A stretch of DNA of 64,000 nt from NCBI GenBank assembly GCA_030426665.1, contig JAUHYD010000002.1, forward strand, positions 303,687 through 367,686, written 5' to 3'. This DNA is from Bacteroidia bacterium. Its GTDB lineage: Bacteria; Bacteroidota; Bacteroidia; Chitinophagales; Chitinophagaceae. The position numbers were made by a program, and so were the translations under genes. The notes under the pieces are model-generated. The model was not told the DNA's origin and ran no database searches. It saw only the letters and a program-made list of their open reading frames with translations. Position 1 is the first letter of the stretch; each line of letters starts with the position of its first letter. Below, one piece after another: positions 49,195-64,000 of the stretch.

Positions 49195-52100
49195 CTACTT
49201 TATAACAATCAGTTTCTGCGTGCGGGTTGTGCCGTCGTTGTTGATACTTACAAAGTAAATGCCTGCGGCAAAATGCTGAATGTCTGTTGTAAACGAATTC
49301 TGTCCTTTCGCTACATTCACCTTTTTGTGAATCAGGTTTCTTCCGGACATGTCTGAAATGTTCATCATTGCTATACCGGCTTTATCGCTGTTGATAACAG
49401 CGCTAAACGAACCGGAAGCAGGGTTAGGGAACACTCTGAATGAGTTGGGTTCTGTAACCGAATTAACTGCTACACCTATCGGACCGTTACTGCCAATAGT
49501 ATTAACCGTTGTGTTGGTCACGATAGGTTCGTTGTAGTCAAAGTAAATCGAAGCTCTGTTTTTGAATTGCGTACCAACTGCAAGCCCTGGTTTAGTTTTT
49601 ATGGTGTAGGTAAACATACCATTGCTGCGCAAGTCGTCAAAAATCTGCGGCGGCAGGTTGATGTTGTTGAAGGTAAACTTAGCTACTTTCACAGAACCGG
49701 ACTCTTGCAAAGTTACCTGACAATGTGCTGACTCATAAACAGGATGTAGTGTCGTCCAGTCAAGGTCGCTGTCCAATGTATCGATAACTACTATGTTTTG
49801 CGCGTACCATGTGCCTGTGTTCTGGAAGTGTACCGTGTATTCCAAAACGGTATCGGTAGCAGCAATGATACCATTGGCACCTGTGCCTTTAGGATATACT
49901 TCTTTGAAGTTTGGGTCATAAGAAGCAACGACGGTAGTATTGTGGTTACGCACATTGTTTGCCGGAGTGTAATCATCAAGCCATGTGCTTAGCGGTCTGT
50001 TGTAACTTACAGTATCCCGGAAGTTAACAACGGTCGCTGCAGGTATGTTAATAGGTGTATTATACCTTATGATGAATTCGCGAGATTCTCCGGGAGCCAA
50101 CGGGCTAATTGTTGTGTCTGTATATAGGTATGGGCTGCCTGAAAATGCTCCCGAAGGAACAAACATGGGCGAATATAATTGTCCGTCGGCCTGATAGGAA
50201 GTCATAACAGAGTCTTCTGTAACAGTACCTTCATTGATAATAATTAATTTCTCAATAGCAACATTACCAGGAACCGGCAGGCTAATGCTCGACGACGAGA
50301 TGCGCATATTGTGTATTGGTGTAGATGTATTAGCGAAGTCAATTGTATGTACACATCCTGTGCTTGCTGTTACTGTTACAGGAATGTCGTTTAACTGGCA
50401 AGGGGATAACATACGATACGGGGCAAGCTTCTCTGTTATTGTGTATGCGCCTGACGGAACTTTGAAAGAATAGTGACCGCTTGCATCTGTATAGGCATAC
50501 CCGATTCCTGAGCAATACACCTGTACGTGCGGTATTCCCATTTCTCCGGATCCCTGTACGCAGTTGTTATCTACATCGTCATAAATTGTTCCTTCTATTG
50601 TACAGTAGCAGCTTGTTTCTGTGGCATCGTAGCCAACGTAGGCACGTGTGCTTCTTGTACAGCCTGTAGCATCCGTCACATGAAGGTAGTAGTAACCGTG
50701 ATTAAGGCCGGTTATGGTAGATGTTGTGCCCCCTCCACTCCATCCGTAAGTATAAGGAGGAGTGCCTCCAAAAGGAGTTGCGGTGATAGCCCCGTCATTA
50801 GCGAATATACACGTCTCCTGACTAACGGATAGTCCAACACCGACCGGAGATACGGGAGTTAAGTCGTAGCCGTGTGATTTATGGCAGCCCATCGCGTCTG
50901 TAACTGTTACACTATACCGTCCTGCCGGTACGCTAGTAATAGACGGCGTTGTTGCTCCATTGCTCCAGAGGTATGTGTAAGGTGTTGCGCCTCCAGCGGG
51001 CATTACGCTGACGCTTCCGTCAGACAGTGTGCACATCGGGCTGGTGGCGGAGAATGTTGTTGTTAAAATATTTACAGGGTTGATTGTTGCCATGCCGGTA
51101 CGTATACAGCCAACCGCATCCGTCACTGTGAATCGGTAAGCACCGGGAGCCAGAAGTGTTGCTGTAGTTCCGGTATGTGCCGGTACGGTGTTCCATACTA
51201 TACTGTAAGGAGCTGTGCCACCCGCCGGAGTCACCGTCGCATTGCCGGTAGGGCTAGTGCACAGGCTTGGCGAACTGGATACAGTAACTGAAATTGGTGT
51301 TGCTGTACCAATACTTCCCCCTGCACTGCCAATACATCCGTTTGCATCTGTAACGGTTAGATAGTAAGCACCGCTCGGTAATCCTGTTTGTGACGCAGTC
51401 GTTGCACCGTTGCTCCAATTGTACGTATATGGTGCAGTTCCTCCTGAAACAAAAGAGGCAATAGCACCATCTGAAGACGTGCACGATGCAGGAGTAGGTG
51501 TTAGTGGTATGCTGATTACAGTGGTCTGTGGTACGAAAACCGTGTTCGCAGTGAATGGTGTTAAGAAGGTGTCTCTTGTTGCCCTGCATCCAAATGAATC
51601 GGTAATCTCTACTGCATAGTTGCCGGTTGAGAGTCCGCTAATAGATGGAGTCGTAGCTCCGTTAGACCATAAATAGCTAAGAGGTGGTACCGCACTTGGG
51701 TCAACAGCACTTACAGTAGCAACCCCATCTGTGCAGTTTGCAGGAGTAGCCGTAACTGTAGCACTAAAAGAGACGTAAGGCACATTTGCAACAGCACCAT
51801 CTGCTCCGGTGCCGTATACGCAACCGGAGGCATCAGTAACGATAACACCGTACCGTCCGGCATGCACCGATGTTGAGCTGCCGGTAGCAATCACACTTCC
51901 CGTGCTTGCATCGAACCAGCGATACGTATAAGGTGCTGTGCCGCCCATGCCTGTTGCAGAAACAGATCCGAGCGCTGGGCATATCTCGTCTGTTGTAGTT
52001 GTCGTGTAGGTTAAAGGAGGCATACCTGGAAAAGAACCGACAGCACTGCTAGATGTGCCAACAACTAACACAGATACAGGACCTCCGCTATAACCTGTAA

Positions 52101-52317
52101 GGGCATCGGACATTCCGGTAACAATATGCGTAATAGTTGTAGAAGGTGTTCCATGAGTTGTCCATGTAACATTAAGTGGTGGTGTGAGCCCGGAGAAATT
52201 GGCAGTCAATACGCCATCATTATTACATGGAGTCACAGGCACACTAAAACTTACTGTCTGAGCAATAGACGACAGGGATGCCGACAATAATAAAATCAAT
52301 GGGAAAATTTTCTTCAT
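49195..52317 (-). CDS. secreted SprB-repeat T9SS protein
   Basis: A 1,040-residue exported protein. After the signal peptide (MKKIFPLILLLSASLSSIAQ), about seven SprB-type repeats of 75-90 residues occupy about 110-560 (recurring GGTAPYTYxW, NGATTxSI, GxYxVTVTDAxGC). A SdrD-B-like module follows (TIYDDVDNNCVQGSGEMG, about 565-630), then a DUF11-like module (YTVHFQNTGTWYAQNIVVIDT) and a T9SS sorting domain (FRVFPNPASGSFSAVI ... GIYFVSINNDG). SprB in Flavobacterium is a gliding adhesin; repeats alone do not prove that role here. Confidence 0.92.
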   Translation of the reverse strand: MKKIFPLILLLSASLSSIAQTVSFSVPVTPCNNDGVLTANFSGLTPPLNVTWTTHGTPSTTITHIVTGMSDALTGYSGGPVSVLVVGTSSSAVGSFPGMPPLTYTTTTTDEICPALGSVSATGMGGTAPYTYRWFDASTGSVIATGSSTSVHAGRYGVIVTDASGCVYGTGADGAVANVPYVSFSATVTATPANCTDGVATVSAVDPSAVPPLSYLWSNGATTPSISGLSTGNYAVEITDSFGCRATRDTFLTPFTANTVFVPQTTVISIPLTPTPASCTSSDGAIASFVSGGTAPYTYNWSNGATTASQTGLPSGAYYLTVTDANGCIGSAGGSIGTATPISVTVSSSPSLCTSPTGNATVTPAGGTAPYSIVWNTVPAHTGTTATLLAPGAYRFTVTDAVGCIRTGMATINPVNILTTTFSATSPMCTLSDGSVSVMPAGGATPYTYLWSNGATTPSITSVPAGRYSVTVTDAMGCHKSHGYDLTPVSPVGVGLSVSQETCIFANDGAITATPFGGTPPYTYGWSGGGTTSTITGLNHGYYYLHVTDATGCTRSTRAYVGYDATETSCYCTIEGTIYDDVDNNCVQGSGEMGIPHVQVYCSGIGYAYTDASGHYSFKVPSGAYTITEKLAPYRMLSPCQLNDIPVTVTASTGCVHTIDFANTSTPIHNMRISSSSISLPVPGNVAIEKLIIINEGTVTEDSVMTSYQADGQLYSPMFVPSGAFSGSPYLYTDTTISPLAPGESREFIIRYNTPINIPAATVVNFRDTVSYNRPLSTWLDDYTPANNVRNHNTTVVASYDPNFKEVYPKGTGANGIIAATDTVLEYTVHFQNTGTWYAQNIVVIDTLDSDLDWTTLHPVYESAHCQVTLQESGSVKVAKFTFNNINLPPQIFDDLRSNGMFTYTIKTKPGLAVGTQFKNRASIYFDYNEPIVTNTTVNTIGSNGPIGVAVNSVTEPNSFRVFPNPASGSFSAVINSDKAGIAMMNISDMSGRNLIHKKVNVAKGQNSFTTDIQHFAAGIYFVSINNDGTTRTQKLIVIK

Positions 52318-53205: not shown

Positions 53206-56200
53206 ATGTACCAGGTTTACAAATTGCGACAGCTATTAAAGTATCTTAGGGTCAGCATCGTTTTTTTTCTTTTTTTCTTTGCTAATGGGCGTGTGACGGC
53301 TCAGACGAACGTGGCCTTAACGGCAACCGCTACCCATTCTGGGGGCGGATCCACCACTTACGGTCCTGCAAATTATAATGACGGTACTATAGCAGCCCAC
53401 TCGGGTTGTACAAGTTCTGCAACGCCATGGGGGTGGGTGAGTAGCAATGGTTGGATTGAGTATACTTGGTCTTCAGAAGTAACGTTTAATAAAATTGTTC
53501 TTTATAAGAGTAATCGACCTATGACAACCTGTCAAATGCAATATTGGAACGGGTCGGCATATGTTACATTTCTAAGTTATTCCGGAAGTACCTGTACGCA
53601 AGATTCAGTTGAGTTCGATGCAATAACGACAACAAGGTTGCGGTTTAATACTGTTGCAGGCAGCAGCAACCCTAATCATCGGGAAATACAAGTATGGTTG
53701 ACAGCACCTCCTCCGCCAACGATAACGGGAACAACGACTTATTGTGAAGGAGGTACAATCTCTTTAACAGCATCGTCGGATGCGCCTGACGCGTATTATG
53801 TATGGACAGGTCCTTCGTCGTTTTCATTTACGGGTGCTACGATGAGTTTAACTTCAGCAGCGCTCTCAAATGCGGGCACGTATAGTTGTACAGTAGCTTC
53901 GGGTAGTACCGGCGCTGCGTCTGACCCGGCTACGACGGTAATTAGTATTAACCCTAAGCCATCTGTATCCACCGGAACGACCGAAGTTTGTGAAGGACAA
54001 ATGTCAACGCTGGTAAATGCTACTGGTGGTGGTACATGGATATCCGAAGATGGCGGTGTTGCTTCCGTTAATTCGGGTACTGGCGAAGTGACGGCTATAA
54101 CAGCGGGTACTGCCAGTATTCTGTATCGGTTGACTTCAACCGGTTGTGAAAGAAGTACTGTCGTTACTGTGAATCCATTACCGGCACCAATTACCGGAAG
54201 TGCAGGGGTTTGTTTTGGCTTTTCCACAGATTTAGACAACAGCGATATTGGTGGTACCTGGAGTTCGGGTACGCCGGGAGTTGCGACTGTTGATGCTTCA
54301 ACAGGAGTAGTGTCAAGTTTTGCAGTGGGGGTCGCGCCGATAGCTTATACGCTTTCGAACGGTTGTCAGAGAATTTTGAATGTTAGCGTAAACCCATTAC
54401 CCGAAGTGACGGTTACACCAACTGGTCCGACTACTATTTGCTTGGATGAAACGACATCTGTTTCAGCGGTTTCCCCGGATCCGCTTTTTGCTGTGTTGTA
54501 TCAAAACTTTGAAGCCGGCTTATCGGGATGGACAGTTGACAATACAACAGGAGGTCCGGCCAACTTCTGGCAAATCGTAAATACGGGTAGTTCGGCAGCA
54601 GGTATAGCCGGTGATGGAAGTCAAATGGCACAGTGTGCGCCATTCTTCAGTTTGACGGGGTCTATACTCACATCGACTTCGTTTTCTACGGTTGGGTTTG
54701 GTTCTGCGACACTCTCGTTCAATCAGCATCTGCTTTCTGATGGTTCGGAAACCACTGTGTCTGTTGAATATTCTGTTGGAGGAGGTCCGTGGACGACTCT
54801 TGCAAGTCAGGTCGGAGACGTTATCGGTTCGGGTGCCTGGAGTGCCGGTTCGCCTGAGTTCAGTATGGCGTTGCCTGCCGGTGCAATTGGTCAATCAGAT
54901 GTGAGATTGCGTTGGAATTATAATGGTGCTTCTTTCTGGTGGTACCTGGATAATATATCTGTAGATGCTGCGTTGCCTGCTTCTACTTTTGAATGGAGTG
55001 GCGCATTCGGCTTGTCATGTACTACCTGCACTAATCCTGATGTGACACCAACCGGAACTGGTGCCAATACTTACAATATTACAGTTACAAGTAGTGCAGG
55101 CTGTACAACAACGGAGGATATTACAGTAAATGTAAATCCATTGCCTAACCCTATTTCGGGCAATTTGAATACGTGCGTTGGTACTACCAATATGTTGAGC
55201 AGTACGTCAGCCGGTGGTACATGGAGCAGCAGCAATCCTGCAGTAGCAACCATATCCGCAGCCGGTGCTATGACAGGAATATCAACAGGAACAACATCAA
55301 TTACTTATACATTATCTACGGGATGTAAGACTATTTCGGTAGCAACCGTGGCTCCTGCGCCTGCAGCGATTACGGGTATGCCTACAGTTTGCGAAGGTCA
55401 GGCAACGGCATTGAGTCATAGTAGTATTGGCGGTGTATGGAGCAGCTCCATGACATCAGTCGCTACTGTTAATAGTTTTGGAGCGGTGAGCGGAATAGCA
55501 GCTGGAACGTCAATGATTACCTATACACTTCCTTCGGGTTGTACGGTATGGCAACCGGTTACTGTAAATGCGACTCCGGCCGCCATTGCAGGTGCGGATG
55601 AGGTTTGTTCTGCTTCCTCGGTTACGTTTACTAATGTTACCTCAGGTGGATTCTGGAGCAGTAGTTCGGCTGCAACAGCGTCAGTTAGTTCAGCCGGAGT
55701 AGTAACAGGTGGTGATGCAGGAATAGCAATTATTACTTACACAATGCCTACATCATGCTATGTAACGAAGCCGATACAGGTAAATCCGTTACCCGCTACT
55801 ATTGGCGGCGCGACAGAAGTATGTGTTGGTAGTACAGCGATGGTAACAAACAGTACTTCCGGCGGAACCTGGAGCGGAACGGTTATTCCTTTTGCCACTG
55901 TATCTGCATCAGGAATCGTTACGGGTTATGCTGCAGGCGTGATCACTACTACGTATACATTGTCTACGGGTTGTCAGGTGACGCATCCGTTTACTATAAA
56001 TGCTTTGCCTTCAAATATTACCGGCCTCACAGAAGTATGTGAGGAGGATTTAATCGCACTGAGCAGCAGCCCTTCGGGTGGAACCTGGTCAAGTAGCTCG
56101 CCAACGAAGCTATCTATTGACGGTGGCTCGGGAGTAGCGACGGGTGTGGATGCCGGTGTTGTAACAGTTAATTATACGCTTTCGACCGGTTGTAGCCAAT

Positions 56201-59200
56201 CAACTACAGTGACGGTAAATGCACTGCCAGAGCCGATATCGGGTACAGCAGTAGTATGTAATGGCGCTACCACAACGCTATATGATTTCACTCCGGGTGG
56301 ATCATGGAGTTCAGGTAATATTCTGATTGCAGATGTAACACCTTCCGGATTAGTAACAGGAACGGGAGCGGGCCAGGCACAGATATCCTACTCTTTAAGT
56401 ACGGGTTGTCTGAAAACTCAGATAGTAACGGTTAATCCACTTCCGGGAGCAATAACGGGTACATTCTCGGTATGTGCGGGTTCGACAACTACGTTGGGTA
56501 ATCCTGACGCAGGCGGCATGTGGAGCAGCAGCAATGCATCTGTAGCTTCCGTAGATGCAGGTGGCGTAGTTACCGGCAATATGCAGGGTATGGCGACAAT
56601 CACTTACACTTTGGTTACAGGTTGTATGATAACACAAGAGGTGACGGTTAATCCTTTGCCGGGTACAATCAGCGGCCCATCTAGTGTGTGTGAGGGTTCT
56701 ACGATAACTTTAGGAAATAGTGCTACCGGTGGCTTGTGGACATCTTCTACACCGTCTATCGCGACAGTAAATGCGCTTGGTGAAGTAACGGGACAAAATG
56801 CAGGTACAACAACAATAGTATATACATTGCCAACAGGTTGTGAACGCAGCAAGGTTATAGCAGTAAATGTGACTCCTGCAATTCCATCGGGCGGTACATC
56901 TATATGTATGGGTCAGAGCACCACGCTGAGCAGCACACCTTCCGGCGGTACATGGAGCAGTGGCTCTGTGGTAACAGCGACCGTAACGGGCGGTACAGTA
57001 ACCGGAAATACTCCGGGCAATACAACAATCATGTACACATTGTCTACTGGTTGTAATTCGATGACCGCATTCACAGTAAATGCACTACCCGCAAACATTA
57101 CGGGTAATCGTCAGGTATGTGTTAACAGCACCACGTTGCTGAGCGATGCAACACCGGGCGGTACGTGGAGTTCAAGTGATCCTATAGCCGCCACTGTAGA
57201 TGGTGCCGGTAATGTAACGGGAATGAATAACGGAACATCGGTAATTACATATACATTGCCGACAGGTTGTATGCGCAGTAGTGTGGTAACGGTGAATCCA
57301 CTGCCTGCACCTATATCGGGTGTGCTGAATGTATGTTCTGGTTCTTCAACAACATTGACAGATGCGACCCCGGGCGGCACGTGGAGCACAAGTGCAGCAT
57401 CAACTGCAATGGTAGCATCTTCAGGTACCGTATCCGGTGTTAATGCCGGATCTGCGACAATATCGTATACGCTACCAACAAGTTGTTATTCGGTAGCAAC
57501 CATGATAGTAAATCCGTTGCCATCAGATATTACGGGTGCCACTGAAGTGTGCGTTGGTTCATCAATCTCGCTGTCAAATGTTACCCCCGGTGGTAGTTGG
57601 ATGTCTATGTCTCCGGGCATAGCGTCTATAGATGGCAGCGGGGTGGTAACGGGCAACGGAGCAGGAATTGCTGTAATCGTTTATAGTTTACCAACAGGCT
57701 GTCAGAAATCAATGTCTGTTCTGGTAAATCCACTGCCTGCAACTATAGTAGGCAATACAACCATATGCGAAAATACGACAACGATGTTGGGAAGCGCAAG
57801 TGCCGGTGGTACGTGGAGCAGTAGCGATGTAGCCGTAGCGACCGTAAATGTATCCGGTGTAGCGACTGGTTTGTCAGCGGGCTTCAGTATCATCACGTAT
57901 ACGTTGCCAACAACATGTAAGACAACACAATCGCTGATAGTGAACAGCTTGCCGGACGTAATCGGCGGAGACGCGACAGTATGTGCCGGTCTTACCACTA
58001 CATTGACAAATACGATAGGCGGAGGTACCTGGAGTGCAGCTACCGATGTGGCAAGGGTAGATGCTTCAGGTGAAGTTTTAGGCATCGCAGCAGGTACAAC
58101 GACCGTTACCTATGCTATAGGTAATAGTTGTTATCGCACAAAGGTAGTTACGGTAAATCCGCTGCCGGGTCTTATTGCCGGTGTAAAATCTGTGTGTCCT
58201 GAAAACACAACAGTACTGAGTAACTCCTATCCTGATGGAACATGGACCAGCGACAATAGTGTAGTGGCAGGTGTCAATGCAACAACGGGAGTAGTAACTG
58301 GCGTTACGCCGGGTGTTGCCAATATCACATATACCTTACCAACAGGTTGTATGCGCAGCAAAGCAGTTACAGTACATGCGCCGGTTGAGCCGATAACAGG
58401 AACTCTGCAGGCTTGTAAAGGAATGACGACGACATTATCGGATGTTACAACCGGAGGGGTATGGATAAGCAACAATACATCAGTTGCAACTATTGATGCA
58501 AGTGGTGCTGTGATGGGTGTTGAAATAGGTACAAGTCGTATATCATATGCAATGCCGATAGGATGTGTTTCAACAACTGTTGTGTCTGTAAACGGACTTC
58601 CTGCAAACATTACCGGAGCATCCGGAGTATGTGAGGGTTCTGTTGCAACGCTTAGTGATGCAACAACCGGAGGAAGCTGGACAAGCAGCGATGATGCGAT
58701 AGCAACAATAGATGCAACCGGCTTGGTGTCAGGAGTTGCTGCCGGAAGCGTTACGATAATGTACACAGTAAATGCAACAGGTTGTATGAAGTCACGAACA
58801 ATGATGGTGAATGCATTGCCGATGACACAGACTGTGACCGGAGGCGGAAGCTATTGTGCAGGTGGTATGGGTGTTTCTGTTGGTCTTGATGGAACTGAAT
58901 CAGGAGTAAGCTATCGTTTGATGAACAGCAGTAGTTCGGTAGTGACGATGGCTGGTACAGGAAGTACGTTAAACTTTGGTATGCAGACTGCCGGAGGTAT
59001 TTATACTGTTGCTGCCATGACAGGTGCCGGCTGCTCAGCAATGATGTCCGGCGATGCGACAGTAGTTGTAAATGCATTAGTGACGCCATCAGTAGCTGTA
59101 AGCTCAGACATGGGAGACGAAGTATGTGATGGTACCCTGACAACGTATACGGCAACAGGAGTTGATGGAGGCAGTTCGCCTACTTACACATGGAGTGTAA

Positions 59201-60174
59201 ACGGTACTGATGTAGGAGCTACAGATACTTACTCGTACACACCTGCAGACGGTGACGATGTAGTTGTGCGCTATATGAGCAGCGAAGCGTGTCCGTCAGT
59301 AGCTGAAGTTTCGGCGATGATTCGCATGCATGTAATTGCCAACGAGACACCATCAATATCAGTGATGTCAGTAAATGGCGATTCACTATGTCAGGGAGAT
59401 ATGGCGTACTTCAACACGACGATAGCGCATGGTGGCGATGCTCCTTCATACACATGGATAGTAGGAGGAAGTATTGTTTCAACAGCAACAGGTTCCAGCT
59501 ACAGCTACATGCCTACAAAAGGCGAAACAGTAGTATGTCGTCTGAACAGCAACTATGCATGTGTCACTGGTAACAATGTTTCAAGTAATGTGATCAACTT
59601 GCGTGTAGACAGCCTGTACATTCCTGAAGTAGAGGTTATTGCTCATCCTGGAACTATAGTAGAAGAAGGCCAGCAGGTAGAGTTTACAACTGTTGTAAGC
59701 AAGGCCGGCGATGCGCCAACTTATCAATGGTTTATCAACAATGTAGCGATACCCGGTGAAACAGGAACTACATTTATGTACAGTGAGTTTAACGATGGCG
59801 ATTCTGTAACGTGTAAAGTTGTTGGTACCGGACATTGTGGTAAAGAGACTATCAACTCGGTAGTATTGAGTGTAGGTCCTGCAACAGGAATTGCACAGAC
59901 AGGCTGGAGTGCAAGTGATTTTCGCCTGATGCCGAACCCAAACAGCGGAACGTTTGTTCTGTCGGGCAATCTTGGCAGCGCAGCTGAAGAGACTGTATCT
60001 GTACAGATAACAGACATGCTGGGTCAGGTAGTATACAATAATGTACTACGTGTACAGAATGGTAGCGTAAATGAGCGTATATCGTTGAGTGGAGCGCTTG
60101 CTAACGGTATGTATATGCTGAATGTAAGCAACGGTGCTGAACGCAAAGTATTCCACTTCGTATTGAAGCAGTAA
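53206..60174 (+). CDS. giant Big-2-like Ig-repeat adhesin with T9SS sorting domain
   Basis: A 2,322-residue surface protein. It has an N-terminal signal segment (about 15-33), a discoidin-like domain (NVALTATATHSGGG ... IVLYKSNRPMTTCQMQYWNG ... HREIQVWL, about 35-165), an Ig-like module, and about 19 Big-2-like repeats of 72 residues (GGTWSSS ... VATV ... G.VTG ... ITYTL.TGC). A jelly-roll module (about 430-590; FEAGLSGWTVDN ... WWYLDNISV) interrupts repeats 2 and 3. Four more Ig-like modules and a T9SS domain (FRLMPNPNSGTFVLSG ... GMYMLNV) close it. Likely a long stalk adhesin (inference). A terminator follows at 60200. Confidence 0.93.
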   Translation: MYQVYKLRQLLKYLRVSIVFFLFFFANGRVTAQTNVALTATATHSGGGSTTYGPANYNDGTIAAHSGCTSSATPWGWVSSNGWIEYTWSSEVTFNKIVLYKSNRPMTTCQMQYWNGSAYVTFLSYSGSTCTQDSVEFDAITTTRLRFNTVAGSSNPNHREIQVWLTAPPPPTITGTTTYCEGGTISLTASSDAPDAYYVWTGPSSFSFTGATMSLTSAALSNAGTYSCTVASGSTGAASDPATTVISINPKPSVSTGTTEVCEGQMSTLVNATGGGTWISEDGGVASVNSGTGEVTAITAGTASILYRLTSTGCERSTVVTVNPLPAPITGSAGVCFGFSTDLDNSDIGGTWSSGTPGVATVDASTGVVSSFAVGVAPIAYTLSNGCQRILNVSVNPLPEVTVTPTGPTTICLDETTSVSAVSPDPLFAVLYQNFEAGLSGWTVDNTTGGPANFWQIVNTGSSAAGIAGDGSQMAQCAPFFSLTGSILTSTSFSTVGFGSATLSFNQHLLSDGSETTVSVEYSVGGGPWTTLASQVGDVIGSGAWSAGSPEFSMALPAGAIGQSDVRLRWNYNGASFWWYLDNISVDAALPASTFEWSGAFGLSCTTCTNPDVTPTGTGANTYNITVTSSAGCTTTEDITVNVNPLPNPISGNLNTCVGTTNMLSSTSAGGTWSSSNPAVATISAAGAMTGISTGTTSITYTLSTGCKTISVATVAPAPAAITGMPTVCEGQATALSHSSIGGVWSSSMTSVATVNSFGAVSGIAAGTSMITYTLPSGCTVWQPVTVNATPAAIAGADEVCSASSVTFTNVTSGGFWSSSSAATASVSSAGVVTGGDAGIAIITYTMPTSCYVTKPIQVNPLPATIGGATEVCVGSTAMVTNSTSGGTWSGTVIPFATVSASGIVTGYAAGVITTTYTLSTGCQVTHPFTINALPSNITGLTEVCEEDLIALSSSPSGGTWSSSSPTKLSIDGGSGVATGVDAGVVTVNYTLSTGCSQSTTVTVNALPEPISGTAVVCNGATTTLYDFTPGGSWSSGNILIADVTPSGLVTGTGAGQAQISYSLSTGCLKTQIVTVNPLPGAITGTFSVCAGSTTTLGNPDAGGMWSSSNASVASVDAGGVVTGNMQGMATITYTLVTGCMITQEVTVNPLPGTISGPSSVCEGSTITLGNSATGGLWTSSTPSIATVNALGEVTGQNAGTTTIVYTLPTGCERSKVIAVNVTPAIPSGGTSICMGQSTTLSSTPSGGTWSSGSVVTATVTGGTVTGNTPGNTTIMYTLSTGCNSMTAFTVNALPANITGNRQVCVNSTTLLSDATPGGTWSSSDPIAATVDGAGNVTGMNNGTSVITYTLPTGCMRSSVVTVNPLPAPISGVLNVCSGSSTTLTDATPGGTWSTSAASTAMVASSGTVSGVNAGSATISYTLPTSCYSVATMIVNPLPSDITGATEVCVGSSISLSNVTPGGSWMSMSPGIASIDGSGVVTGNGAGIAVIVYSLPTGCQKSMSVLVNPLPATIVGNTTICENTTTMLGSASAGGTWSSSDVAVATVNVSGVATGLSAGFSIITYTLPTTCKTTQSLIVNSLPDVIGGDATVCAGLTTTLTNTIGGGTWSAATDVARVDASGEVLGIAAGTTTVTYAIGNSCYRTKVVTVNPLPGLIAGVKSVCPENTTVLSNSYPDGTWTSDNSVVAGVNATTGVVTGVTPGVANITYTLPTGCMRSKAVTVHAPVEPITGTLQACKGMTTTLSDVTTGGVWISNNTSVATIDASGAVMGVEIGTSRISYAMPIGCVSTTVVSVNGLPANITGASGVCEGSVATLSDATTGGSWTSSDDAIATIDATGLVSGVAAGSVTIMYTVNATGCMKSRTMMVNALPMTQTVTGGGSYCAGGMGVSVGLDGTESGVSYRLMNSSSSVVTMAGTGSTLNFGMQTAGGIYTVAAMTGAGCSAMMSGDATVVVNALVTPSVAVSSDMGDEVCDGTLTTYTATGVDGGSSPTYTWSVNGTDVGATDTYSYTPADGDDVVVRYMSSEACPSVAEVSAMIRMHVIANETPSISVMSVNGDSLCQGDMAYFNTTIAHGGDAPSYTWIVGGSIVSTATGSSYSYMPTKGETVVCRLNSNYACVTGNNVSSNVINLRVDSLYIPEVEVIAHPGTIVEEGQQVEFTTVVSKAGDAPTYQWFINNVAIPGETGTTFMYSEFNDGDSVTCKVVGTGHCGKETINSVVLSVGPATGIAQTGWSASDFRLMPNPNSGTFVLSGNLGSAAEETVSVQITDMLGQVVYNNVLRVQNGSVNERISLSGALANGMYMLNVSNGAERKVFHFVLKQ
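54500..56623. repeat. 2.1-kb direct repeat, copy 1
   Basis: Collinear with 61877-64000 at a fixed offset of 7,377 bp without a visible gap; the match is high with scattered, mostly synonymous changes, and some stretches (for example around 54900-55010) are identical over about 100 bp. The left boundary fades below 54500. Confidence 0.85.
55138..58815 (+). repeat. tandem array of about 17 Big-2-like repeats (~216 bp each)
   Basis: Repeats 3-19 of the adhesin run head to tail, each about 72 codons, with a common linker (PLPxxIxG), a mid-repeat GGTWSSS and an end TYTLxTGC. Each unit starts with a Cys a few residues after the linker and ends with a Cys, so each may form one disulfide. Confidence 0.8.
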
Positions 60175-60199
60175 TAGCTTTTAATTTACATTTTAAGTC

Positions 60200-60230
60200 A
60201 AACAGGGTGCGAATTATCGCACCCTGTTTT
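60200..60230 (+). terminator. terminator of the giant adhesin gene
   Basis: Perfect 13-bp stem AAACAGGGTGCGA with its complement at 60217-60229, loop ATTA, followed by T. It starts 26 nt past the stop codon. Confidence 0.85.
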
Positions 60231-60588
60231 GGTTAGTTTAAATCATCTTAGTGTAATATTTAATTACAAATGGATGCAATTATATTAAGTAATTAAATAT
60301 TTTAATTCAAATTCTATTTAATATGTAATGGTGTAATTCAATACTTATTTTTTTCTGGCTTGCAAAGCGCCATCAGAAATATTTGTTTAATTGAATTATT
60401 GATATTTAGGCGGTTATAGTTCATTGTTTTGTTTATGTTTGTTTTGTGCTAATAAATTAACTGCAGATTAATAATGATATTTTATTTTAAAAATGTCAGC
60501 AGATTAACTATTTTAGCTATCAATAGAATCAGATATATTGCTGGTATTAAACAAGTAGAAATCTATTATCAAATATAAAAGTGTAGTT
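60231..60588. other. AT-rich leader region of the second adhesin gene
   Basis: About 358 bp, very AT-rich, with no accepted gene or exact promoter box. It resembles the AT-rich stretch ahead of 53206 in composition. Confidence 0.4.
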
Positions 60589-63500
60589 ATGAAGAAACTT
60601 TACATCCTGTTGATGATCAGCTGTTTAAGCTTTGTTTCATCCGCACAAATCACATTGACTTTTGAAGAGACTTTTCCCGCAGGGACTGCATCGTCTGCCC
60701 TGTGTTCTTCATGGAATGCCTACCGGGCAACGTTGCTTGCTACTCACGACTATACCGGCTTCAAAATGAGTGGAAGTGCGGACGTAACCGGTATCACGTG
60801 TACTAATCCTACCGTTGCTGCTGCAGTAGCAAATGCATTGAGGACGGCAGGCACTTATACCGGGTCTTCAGATGGTCAGACATGGAGCGTTGGAAATTGT
60901 GGAGGTGTTGCTTTAAGTAATGGGCCTCTTTGTAGTTGTGGATCTGATTATGTGATTAGACCATGTATCGCAAATAGTAATTGGGGGGGCATGGGTACAG
61001 CAAATTGTGGCGGACCAACGCAAACAATGAAACTTGAGTTCTTCTATAACCCTCCTTGTTCTGACCCCCCGGCAAGTACCGGTGCAATGTCTATGTGCAT
61101 TGGAGGAACGAGTACATTGTCAAATACGGAACCCGATGGCACCTGGAGCAGTGGTGCAACCGGAGTTGCCACCGTTGATGCAACAACCGGAGTTGTTACA
61201 GGGGTTTCAGCTGGTACTGCGTCCATCACTTACATGGTTCTTGGTGGATGTAAAAGTTCTGTTGTAGTTACAATAAATGCCAAACCAACGGTTGCAAGTA
61301 TTTCGTCTTCAACACCAGTTTTATGTGCCGGTGATGATGTTACTTTTTCGTCTGGTGCAACCACAGGTACTGGTAGCATCAGTTCTTACAATTGGTCAGG
61401 GCCAGGTGGTTATACTGCAACAACATCTACTTCTTCGGTTGTGTTTACAACCTCTTTACCAACAGAAAGTGGTGCCTATAGTTTGACGGTAACTTATCCC
61501 GGCAGTGGATGTGTGAGTAATCCAGTGATAACTTCTCCTGTTGACGTTCAACCTACACCGGACGCTATTTCCGGTCCTGCGGGAGTTTGTGTTGGCCAGA
61601 CGGCGACATACAGTAGCACAACACCCGGCTGTTTATGGTCCTCCGCCAACCTTGCAATTGCCAGCGTTGCTTCAGGTTCAGGGGTGGTAACAGGAGTTTC
61701 CGGAGGTTTAGCAACAATTATATGCACAGGTGCAAATTCATGTAGTACTACTCGAGTAATAGATGTAAATCCTAATCCGGAATTGACCGTTTCGGCAACG
61801 GGACCCTCAACTATTTGCATGGGAGAAACAACATCTATTAATGCGGCGTCTCCTAATCCTACATTTGCAATCTTAAGTCAGAACTTTGAAGGTGGCCTAT
61901 CGGGTTGGACAGTTGACAATACAACAGGTAGTCCTGCCAACTTCTGGCAAATAGTAAATACGGGTAGCTCGGCAGCAGGTATAGCCGGTGATGGAAGCCA
62001 AATGGCACAGTGTGCACCATTCTTTAGTTTGACGGGGTCTATACTCACATCGACTTCGTTTTCTACTGTTGGTTATGGTTCCGCAATTTTGTCATTTAAT
62101 CAGCATCTGCTTTCTGATGGTTCGGAAACCACTGTGTCTGTTGAATATTCTGTTGGCGGAGGTCCATGGACTACTCTTGCAAGTCAGGTTGGTGACGTTA
62201 TCGGTTCCGGTGCATGGAGTGCCGGTTCGCCTGAGTTCAGTATGGCGTTGCCTGCCGGTGCAATTGGTCAATCAGATGTGAGATTGCGTTGGAATTATAA
62301 TGGTGCTTCTTTCTGGTGGTACCTGGATAATATATCTGTAGATGCTGCGTTGCCTGCTTCTACTTTTGAATGGAGTGGCGCATTCGGTTTGTCATGTACT
62401 ACCTGCACTAATCCGGATGTGACACCAACCGGAACTGGTGCCAATACTTACAATATTACAGTTACCAGTAGTGCCGGATGTACTACAACCGATGCAGCGA
62501 CAGTAAATGTAAATCCATTACCTAACCCTATTTCGGGTAATTTGAATACGTGCGTTGGTACTACCAATATGTTAAGCAGTACGTCAGCCGGTGGTACCTG
62601 GAGCAGCAGCAACCCTGCAGTAGCTACCATATCCGCTGTCGGTGCTATGACAGGAATATCAACAGGAACAACATCAATTACTTATACATTATCTACGGGA
62701 TGTAAGACAATTTCAGTGGCTACAGTAGCTCCTGCGCCTGCAGCGGTTACGGGTACACCTACAGTTTGTGAAGGTCAGGCGACGGCGTTGAGTCATAGTA
62801 GTATAGGCGGTGTATGGAGCAGTTCCATGACATCGGCAGCGACTGTTAATTCTTTTGGAGCGGTGAGCGGCATAGCAGCTGGAACATCAATGATAACCTA
62901 TACACTTCCTTCGGGCTGTACCGTATGGCAACCGGTTACTGTAAATGCGACTCCGGCTGCCATTGCAGGTGCCGACGAGGTTTGTTCTGCATCATCAGTA
63001 ACGTTTACTGATGCTACTTCCGGTGGATTCTGGAGCAGTAGTTCAGCAGCAACAGCGTCAGTTAGTTCAGCTGGTGTTGTAACAGGCGGCGATGCAGGAA
63101 TATCTATTATTACGTACACCATGCCGACCACATGTTATGTGACGAAACCGATACAGGTAAATCCGTTACCCGCTACTATTGGCGGCGCGACAGAAGTATG
63201 TGTTGGTAGCACAGCCATGGTAACGAACAGTAGCTCCGGCGGAACCTGGAGCGGAACGGTTATTCCGTTTGCCACTGTGTCTGCATCAGGAACAGTTACT
63301 GGATATGCTGCAGGCGTGATTACTACTACATATACATTGTCTACGGGTTGTCAGGTGACGCATCCGTTTACGATAAATGCTTTGCCTTCAAATATTACCG
63401 GTCTCACAGAAGTGTGTGAGGAAGATTTAATCGCATTGAGCAGCAGCCCTTCGGGCGGAACCTGGTCAAGCAGCTCACCAACGAAGCTATCTATTGACGG

Positions 63501-64000
63501 TGGCTCGGGAGTAGCGACCGGTGTGGATGCTGGTGTTGTAACAGTTAATTATACGCTTTCTACCGGTTGTAGCCAATCAACAACAGTAACCGTAAATGCA
63601 CTGCCTGAACCAATATCCGGTACAGCAGTAGTATGTAATGGTGCTACAACAACGCTATATGATTTCATTCCGGGAGGATCATGGAGTTCAGGAAATATCC
63701 TGATTGCAGATGTAACACCTTCCGGATTAGTTACGGGAACCGGAGCTGGTCAGGCACAGATATCCTACTCTTTAAGTACGGGTTGTCTGAAAACACAGAT
63801 AGTAACGGTAAACCCACTTCCGGGAGCGATTACCGGTATCTTCTCAGTATGTGCGGGTTCGACAACTACGTTGGGTAATCCTGATGCAGGTGGCATGTGG
63901 AGCAGCAGCAATGCCTCTGTAGCCTCTGTAGATGCAGGTGGCGTAGTTACCGGCAATATGCAGGGTATGGCGACAATCACTTACACTTTGGTTACAGGTT
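60589..64000 (+). CDS. second Big-2-like Ig-repeat adhesin (C-terminus outside window)
   Basis: At least 1,137 codons, open to the window edge. It starts MKKLYILLMISCLSFVSSAQ, a clean signal peptide. A unique Cys-rich N-terminal domain follows (about 20-160; CSSWNAYRATL, GNCGGVALSNGPLCSCGSDYVIRP), different from the discoidin-like start of the previous protein. One Big-2-like repeat, an Ig-like module (SYNWSGPGGYTA), another repeat, the same jelly-roll module and at least seven Big-2-like repeats come next. From about residue 430 it nearly duplicates the neighbouring protein. A T9SS end is expected but not visible. Confidence 0.88.
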   Translation, partial: MKKLYILLMISCLSFVSSAQITLTFEETFPAGTASSALCSSWNAYRATLLATHDYTGFKMSGSADVTGITCTNPTVAAAVANALRTAGTYTGSSDGQTWSVGNCGGVALSNGPLCSCGSDYVIRPCIANSNWGGMGTANCGGPTQTMKLEFFYNPPCSDPPASTGAMSMCIGGTSTLSNTEPDGTWSSGATGVATVDATTGVVTGVSAGTASITYMVLGGCKSSVVVTINAKPTVASISSSTPVLCAGDDVTFSSGATTGTGSISSYNWSGPGGYTATTSTSSVVFTTSLPTESGAYSLTVTYPGSGCVSNPVITSPVDVQPTPDAISGPAGVCVGQTATYSSTTPGCLWSSANLAIASVASGSGVVTGVSGGLATIICTGANSCSTTRVIDVNPNPELTVSATGPSTICMGETTSINAASPNPTFAILSQNFEGGLSGWTVDNTTGSPANFWQIVNTGSSAAGIAGDGSQMAQCAPFFSLTGSILTSTSFSTVGYGSAILSFNQHLLSDGSETTVSVEYSVGGGPWTTLASQVGDVIGSGAWSAGSPEFSMALPAGAIGQSDVRLRWNYNGASFWWYLDNISVDAALPASTFEWSGAFGLSCTTCTNPDVTPTGTGANTYNITVTSSAGCTTTDAATVNVNPLPNPISGNLNTCVGTTNMLSSTSAGGTWSSSNPAVATISAVGAMTGISTGTTSITYTLSTGCKTISVATVAPAPAAVTGTPTVCEGQATALSHSSIGGVWSSSMTSAATVNSFGAVSGIAAGTSMITYTLPSGCTVWQPVTVNATPAAIAGADEVCSASSVTFTDATSGGFWSSSSAATASVSSAGVVTGGDAGISIITYTMPTTCYVTKPIQVNPLPATIGGATEVCVGSTAMVTNSSSGGTWSGTVIPFATVSASGTVTGYAAGVITTTYTLSTGCQVTHPFTINALPSNITGLTEVCEEDLIALSSSPSGGTWSSSSPTKLSIDGGSGVATGVDAGVVTVNYTLSTGCSQSTTVTVNALPEPISGTAVVCNGATTTLYDFIPGGSWSSGNILIADVTPSGLVTGTGAGQAQISYSLSTGCLKTQIVTVNPLPGAITGIFSVCAGSTTTLGNPDAGGMWSSSNASVASVDAGGVVTGNMQGMATITYTLVTG
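61877..64000. repeat. 2.1-kb direct repeat, copy 2 (continues past window)
   Basis: Partner of 54500-56623. It is still aligned at the window's last base, so the repeat is longer than seen here. Confidence 0.85.

Follow-up and report, generated by a model that had tools for sequence, protein, structure and literature searches.

A stalk shared by at least four giant predicted surface-protein genes with unrelated tips, probably kept alike by repeated gene conversion in a Chitinophagaceae genome

Contig breaks inside the RgpA, Kgp and HagA genes of Porphyromonas gingivalis are attributed, in the passages of PMC5266723 that deal with them, to identical repeats shared between genes, and allelic exchange and gene conversion are credited there in general terms. 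These are type IX-type surface proteins of the Bacteroidota whose adhesin modules are common within the genome (PMC5266723, same passages), and in both respects they resemble the genes described here. As far as the relevant parts of PMC12863079 describe them, the Giant1-5 genes of Apilactobacillus kunkeei are also alike, being neighbouring genes for giant extracellular proteins with recombination patches and homogenised stretches. The 10-kb inverted repeat of Flavobacterium psychrophilum, in the portion of PMC5808330 devoted to it, is a repeated Bacteroidota adhesin region that recombines with its own copy.

We analyzed a window of 64 kb that forms the last part of contig C29 in an assembly of 4.62 Mb and 43 contigs (labeled G000). 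The window ends where the contig ends, inside the second of two neighboring giant genes, A and B (Table 1). The original prediction was that these genes share a gap-free direct repeat, 54500-56623 with 61877-64000, at an offset of 7,377 bp, and alignment confirmed it: the match holds this offset without a gap from about 54388/61765 to the window end, and the two stretches differ at 162 of 2,124 bp (92.4% identity). As also predicted, most changes (137 of the 162) are at third codon positions, with 10 and 15 at the first and second. Several identical stretches of about 100 bp had been expected as well, of which only one stood, at 173 bp; the next longest tracts are 69-72 bp. When differences were placed at random with their codon-position counts held fixed, the longest tract averaged 67 bp, and 173 bp was never reached in 20,000 trials. 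At the start of the module, 18-21 of each 30 bases are alike across the first 120 bp, after which identity is 87-100% per 100 bp. The N-terminal domains, discoidin-like in A and Cys-rich in B, proved as wholly different as anticipated, with 17% identity in the first 150 aa.

Table 1. Positions of genes A and B, their parts and a neighboring gene in the 64-kb window
Feature	Position	Strand	Evidence and remarks
1,040-aa gene marking locus alpha	49195..52317	-	Divergent from gene A; 54-62% relatives adjoin a stalk gene in G006, G012 and G015
Gene A, complete, 2,322 aa	53206..60174	+	Open frame
Gene A, private tip	53206..54387	+	Signal-peptide-like N-terminus (judged by eye), DUF7402 and Ig-like stretches
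Gene A tip, discoidin-like DUF7402 stretch	about 53308-53664	+	26.5 bits, just below the cut-off of 27
Gene A tip, Ig-like stretch	about 53716-53934	+	Ig_2, 33.1 bits (cut-off 27)
Gene A, shared stalk module	54388..60174	+	DNA 87-93% identical to that of the other close copies; Big_2, 177 bits; unit spacing
Longest A-B identical tract, 173 bp	54841..55013 (in B, about 62218-62390)	+	Pairwise comparison
Gene A, Por_Secre_tail (type IX secretion C-terminal sorting domain)	59932..60150	+	37.2 bits (cut-off 27)
Terminator-like hairpin and T-run	60200..60232	+	Folding energy z-score -6.75; within about 60 bp past the gene A stop
Gene B, cut after 1,137 aa by the end of C29	60589..64000	+	Open frame
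Gene B, private tip	60589..61764	+	Cys-rich module of about 130 aa within 60643-61062; no Pfam match; 10 related proteins
Gene B, shared stalk module, first 2.2 kb	61765..64000	+	Ends within 114 bp that match copy D exactly

The repeat had been taken as a matter of two genes, and this did not hold. A search of the genome's contigs with the 5,787-bp (5.8-kb) stalk module of gene A returned 61 matches, six of them close (A to F; 87-100% identical over at least 2.2 kb), and it placed the module on three contigs besides C29, which carries A and B. C7 has one full copy (C) as well as a 3′ half (F), C15 starts with another 3′ half (E), and C43 ends in a 5′ part (D); pairwise, stalk DNA is 84-93% identical. 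Judged from these sequences, the six close pieces belong to at least four genes with differing tips. Four contig ends lie inside stalks, and pieces B, D, E, and F are broken by them, so two of the four genes were not seen whole. At locus alpha of another genome, G015, one stalk gene sits between a 62% relative of the 1,040-aa gene and relatives (82, 47, and 54% identity) of the next three genes after E on C15. This arrangement makes E the most likely continuation of gene B, which by elimination would leave D to pair with F. A scan of genome contigs with gene A, which may have left out the genome of the window itself or one very close to it, gave one related locus, in a Flavipsychrobacter stenotrophus MAG; Flavipsychrobacter is a genus of the Chitinophagaceae.

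Some observations concern the wider set of such genes. In G000, the C-terminal 422 aa of gene A have 28 matches at E ≤ 1e-30, some in open frames of up to 11,279 aa, and these predicted giant surface-protein genes are a large set for 4.6 Mb. This genome also contains a second homogenized pair, L093 (C2:6820-8175) and L094 (C33:3-1361), both at contig ends, whose C-terminal 452 aa are 99.3% identical and whose DNA is 92-99% identical per 100 bp. Near-identical stalk ends at contig ends recur in L085/L086 (G012, contigs C36 and C4) and L095/L096 (G006, contigs C3 and C4). The G012 pair is itself a patchwork, with an island of 67-86% inside DNA of 97-100% identity.

The stalk of gene A comprises a linker region that is not Ig-like, about 17 units (each of about 72 aa), a further Ig/PKD-like part, and the sorting domain; the unit count follows from 16 motif matches spaced 71-73 aa, with one spacing doubled. 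Units within A are on average 35% alike (maximum 56%), and 16 of 16 module units match the unit at the same position in C at 71-100%. Unit shuffling inside the stalk is not supported by these figures. Over 1,892 aa, the alignment of A with C contains no insertion or deletion, and the unit order is the same. We measured stalk length from 36 aa inside the module in A and 18 genes aligned to it, finding 1,892-1,911 aa in 15 of the 19 genes and 1,742, 1,802, 2,059, and 2,104 aa in the other four; the part preceding the measuring point spans 413-914 aa in the same 15 genes. With the first 60 codons omitted, dN/dS between stalk copies is 0.05-0.11 and dS is 0.28-0.72, depending on the pair.

All four copies with a 5′ part score as Big_2 Ig-like repeat proteins (177, 77, 175, and 123 bits in A, B, C, and D; cut-off 22.8). 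Por_Secre_tail is found in A and C (37.2 and 36.0 bits against a cut-off of 27), with B and D being cut before the domain. The stalk proteins are predicted type IX secretion cargo with a type A sorting domain, and their export to the surface is likewise a prediction. Past the stop codon, A and F remain alike over 58 bp at 98% and A and E over 64 bp at 84%, including a hairpin and T-run; the 3′ flank of C has no match to A, E, or F beyond the stop. In three copies, the shared module thus begins at the tip junction and runs through the terminator.

The tips are unrelated. The Cys-rich module of the B tip is present three times in a Kofleriaceae protein named M57 metalloprotease, one of its 10 relatives, and likewise three times in each of two further proteins; its predicted structure (pLDDT 75.0, pTM 0.77) had no match at E ≤ 0.001 in a fold search of the PDB. 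The tip of C is a CUB domain (28.8 bits, cut-off 21.4), and that of D combines an ALK/LTK Gly-rich domain (72.8 bits, cut-off 24.5) with GEVED (51.1 bits, cut-off 24.4). Adhesin function, surface location, and binding are predictions from these domains. The four tips of the close copies each have an open frame and a start of their own, and no silent tip cassette was found among them, the starts of E and F lying beyond contig ends. Relatives on the same type of stalk exist for tip A (73-74% identity in G011, F. stenotrophus, and P0071), tip C (63%, P0100), and tip D (44%, G006). Genes with the same tip (A, C, or D) are 45-71% identical across species in every 150-aa window along their whole length. 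Paralogues within G000 are 17-34% identical over the two earliest comparable windows of this size and 89-99% identical in the stalk, except for two A-C stalk windows at 79-81%. Separately, in G012, L048:2-3820 and L086:2-3820 have a common tip sequence just past signal peptides that differ.

A gene-conversion test and windowed divergence, which had been suggested with the original prediction, found divergence to be uneven along the stalk and rival groupings of copies to be clustered. Among sites that split four copies two against two, the three possible groupings are represented by 33, 32, and 26 sites in A/B/C/D and by 20, 41, and 62 in A/C/E/F. These sites fall into 29 runs in the former set (61.3 expected, sd 4.5) and 38 in the latter (75.8 expected, sd 5.0), and 0 of 10,000 permutations gave so few in either. 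With third positions only, there are 25 runs against 48.8 expected (A/B/C/D) and 32 against 61.8 (A/C/E/F). Fourfold-site divergence shifts abruptly, as between A and E, where a stretch with 2/36 adjoins stretches with 14/33 and 15/38. In tests of the longest shared run, based on 2,000 permutations and left uncorrected for each pair, five of the six 5′ pairs (all but B-C, at 0.06) and every one of the six 3′ pairs reached P ≤ 0.05; taken over the whole set of pairs, P was 0.0005 for either part. Restricted to third positions, A-D (0.10) and B-C (0.08) were not significant in the 5′ part, while the 3′ results held for all six. A conversion gradient toward the module edges was set aside as weak: its permutation P was 0.04, but 13 of 40 circular shifts were as low. 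These patterns indicate that the stalks form a mosaic of conversion patches, and the sequences lend good support to gene conversion involving at least four stalks.

We compared stalks across genomes in two trees. The C-terminal tree covers the last 570 aa in 19 rows; G011_C17 was too short to enter, and B and D lack the region. Its clades follow genomes, uniting four G000 copies (100/100), three from G006, five from G012, and two from G015. Constraints uniting the locus-alpha genes (p = 1.8e-71) or the beta genes (p = 1.6e-5, with C and F counted as probable beta genes) were rejected, and the more distant G000_C20, G000_C8, and G011_C62 fall outside their own genomes' groups. The N-half tree, with 18 rows over 700 residues of A and without G012 rows or distant members, again groups the copies of G000, G006, G011, and G015 by genome, with P0073 falling among those of G006 and F. 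stenotrophus among those of G011; grouping by tip A, C, or D was rejected (p = 1.5e-6, 3.7e-78, and 1.9e-43). Paralogues are thus nearer to each other than orthologues, as in concerted evolution, the exceptions being the three distant genes and the orthologous stalk pairs retained by the nearest species (G011_C74 with F. stenotrophus, G006_C2 with P0073). Because of these retained pairs and the G000 and G011 relatives outside genome groups, we read stalk homogenization as slow. By the same sequence comparisons, tip families are common to several species while stalks group by genome.

The tips are not fixed to one locus. Tip A is at locus alpha in G000 and behind other genes in G011 and F. stenotrophus, between which the four genes upstream of the tip-A gene are 83-95% identical; one gene upstream of that locus has only 47-49% relatives in G000, G006, G012, and G015. 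Tip D adjoins ileS (locus beta) in G000 and is at alpha in G006, and alpha holds one stalk gene with another tip in G015 against two or more in G000. A 7,377-bp deletion between the repeats, as raised in the original prediction, might fuse genes A and B; the single gene of G015, though, has a different tip. Tips also keep their place, at alpha in G012 and G015 (38% identical), in G011 and F. stenotrophus (83%), and behind a 385-399-aa gene near ileS in G006 and G015 (58%). Tips or whole genes apparently move between loci, but seldom. An apparent flank synteny of C7 with locus alpha of G006 was set aside, as it involved a single neighbor gene. The exchange of tips on a shared stalk, raised in the original prediction, gains from the finding of one tip family at differing loci across species, but no exchange was caught, and this support is indirect because relocation of whole genes would give the same picture.

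We put the probability at roughly 85% that a stalk kept alike by repeated gene conversion is common to at least four giant proteins with unrelated tips, predicted to be surface proteins secreted by the type IX system. Each tip would lie at the N-terminus behind a putative signal peptide, and the stalk with its sorting domain (and, in three copies, the terminator) forms one module, which the alignments find alike by position. Homologous recombination between copies would overwrite patches of stalk and halt where homology is lost, at the tip and the flank; the resulting patchwork is seen directly, and the events behind it are likely RecA-dependent and mostly without crossover. The tips descend as separate cross-species families and the stalks of one genome evolve jointly, as the trees display. 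The likely benefit is a display set in which differing binding tips are held at similar height on a secretion-competent stalk.

By-genome stalks with old tips would likewise arise through tip capture, in which one stalk, recently duplicated in the lineage, would have been attached to tips that already existed, and little conversion would have followed. Such a single history predicts one grouping along the stalk, whereas rival groupings alternate in blocks; it would need repeating in G006, G011, G012, and G015; and a dS of 0.28-0.72 between copies is too high for one recent duplication. We consider this origin improbable, and the original preference for repeated conversion over one recent duplication agrees with the four-way mosaic tests, the stalk trees, and dS. 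The likeness of the stalks could instead be a means of programmed tip variation, with repeats swapping or deleting tips in the population (phase or antigenic variation). Tips A and D do occupy differing loci between species, and the 7.4-kb direct repeats could delete one tip, but the open frames with their own starts, the lack of a silent cassette among the four tips, and the tips that hold their place between nearer species make this very unlikely.

Least credible of all is a false mosaic made by a short-read assembler that mixed or copied paralogues, even with four contig ends inside stalks and the last ~114 bp of C29 identical to copy D. Differing tips and downstream flanks mark the genes as distinct, and the by-genome grouping recurs in other assemblies, one with 10 contigs. 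Between any pair of copies there are only 8 identical tracts of at least 100 bp, too few for 67 pattern runs, so swapping of paralogues by the assembler is an unlikely cause. Returning to a stalk maintained by conversion, one might tentatively extend it to a standardized display rack in the Chitinophagaceae, in which continual conversion stamps a stalk of fixed length onto giant genes at scattered loci, and interchangeable N-terminal tips share a height and export signal and move between loci via stalk homology; we find this extension conceivable but rather doubtful.

These genes would provide a clear bacterial case of a giant protein of which one part evolves concertedly at separate loci and the part next to it remains private. 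They may also offer a natural setting in which to study how a conversion patch ends where homology does, and whether selection acts on stalk length as a ruler. Private tips on one standard stalk would likely let a cell present several binding tips. There is also a warning here: in draft genomes of this group, contigs break within surface-protein genes and may be wrongly joined there.

Rhs-type polymorphic proteins also combine a conserved core with exchangeable ends, but their variable end is C-terminal and usually toxic, whereas in the present genes it is N-terminal and resembles binding domains. Literature on gene conversion or concerted evolution together with type IX secretion, mostly papers readable without subscription, yielded no description of this stalk. 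The modules of RgpA, Kgp, and HagA vary in kind, number, and order, and the passages on them in PMC5266723 present no by-genome stalk tree; here, unit order and number agree between A and C, the two complete copies, with patches in register. The repeat of F. psychrophilum comprises three genes, is inverted, and flips a 1.9-Mb segment, and the portion of PMC5808330 on it describes no differing tips on a common stalk. In A. kunkeei, which represents another phylum and protein class, the relevant parts of PMC12863079 report exchange between strains and co-diverging gene subtypes. Unlike Giant1-5 as described there, the present genes keep one stalk alike beneath unrelated tips at scattered loci of one genome.
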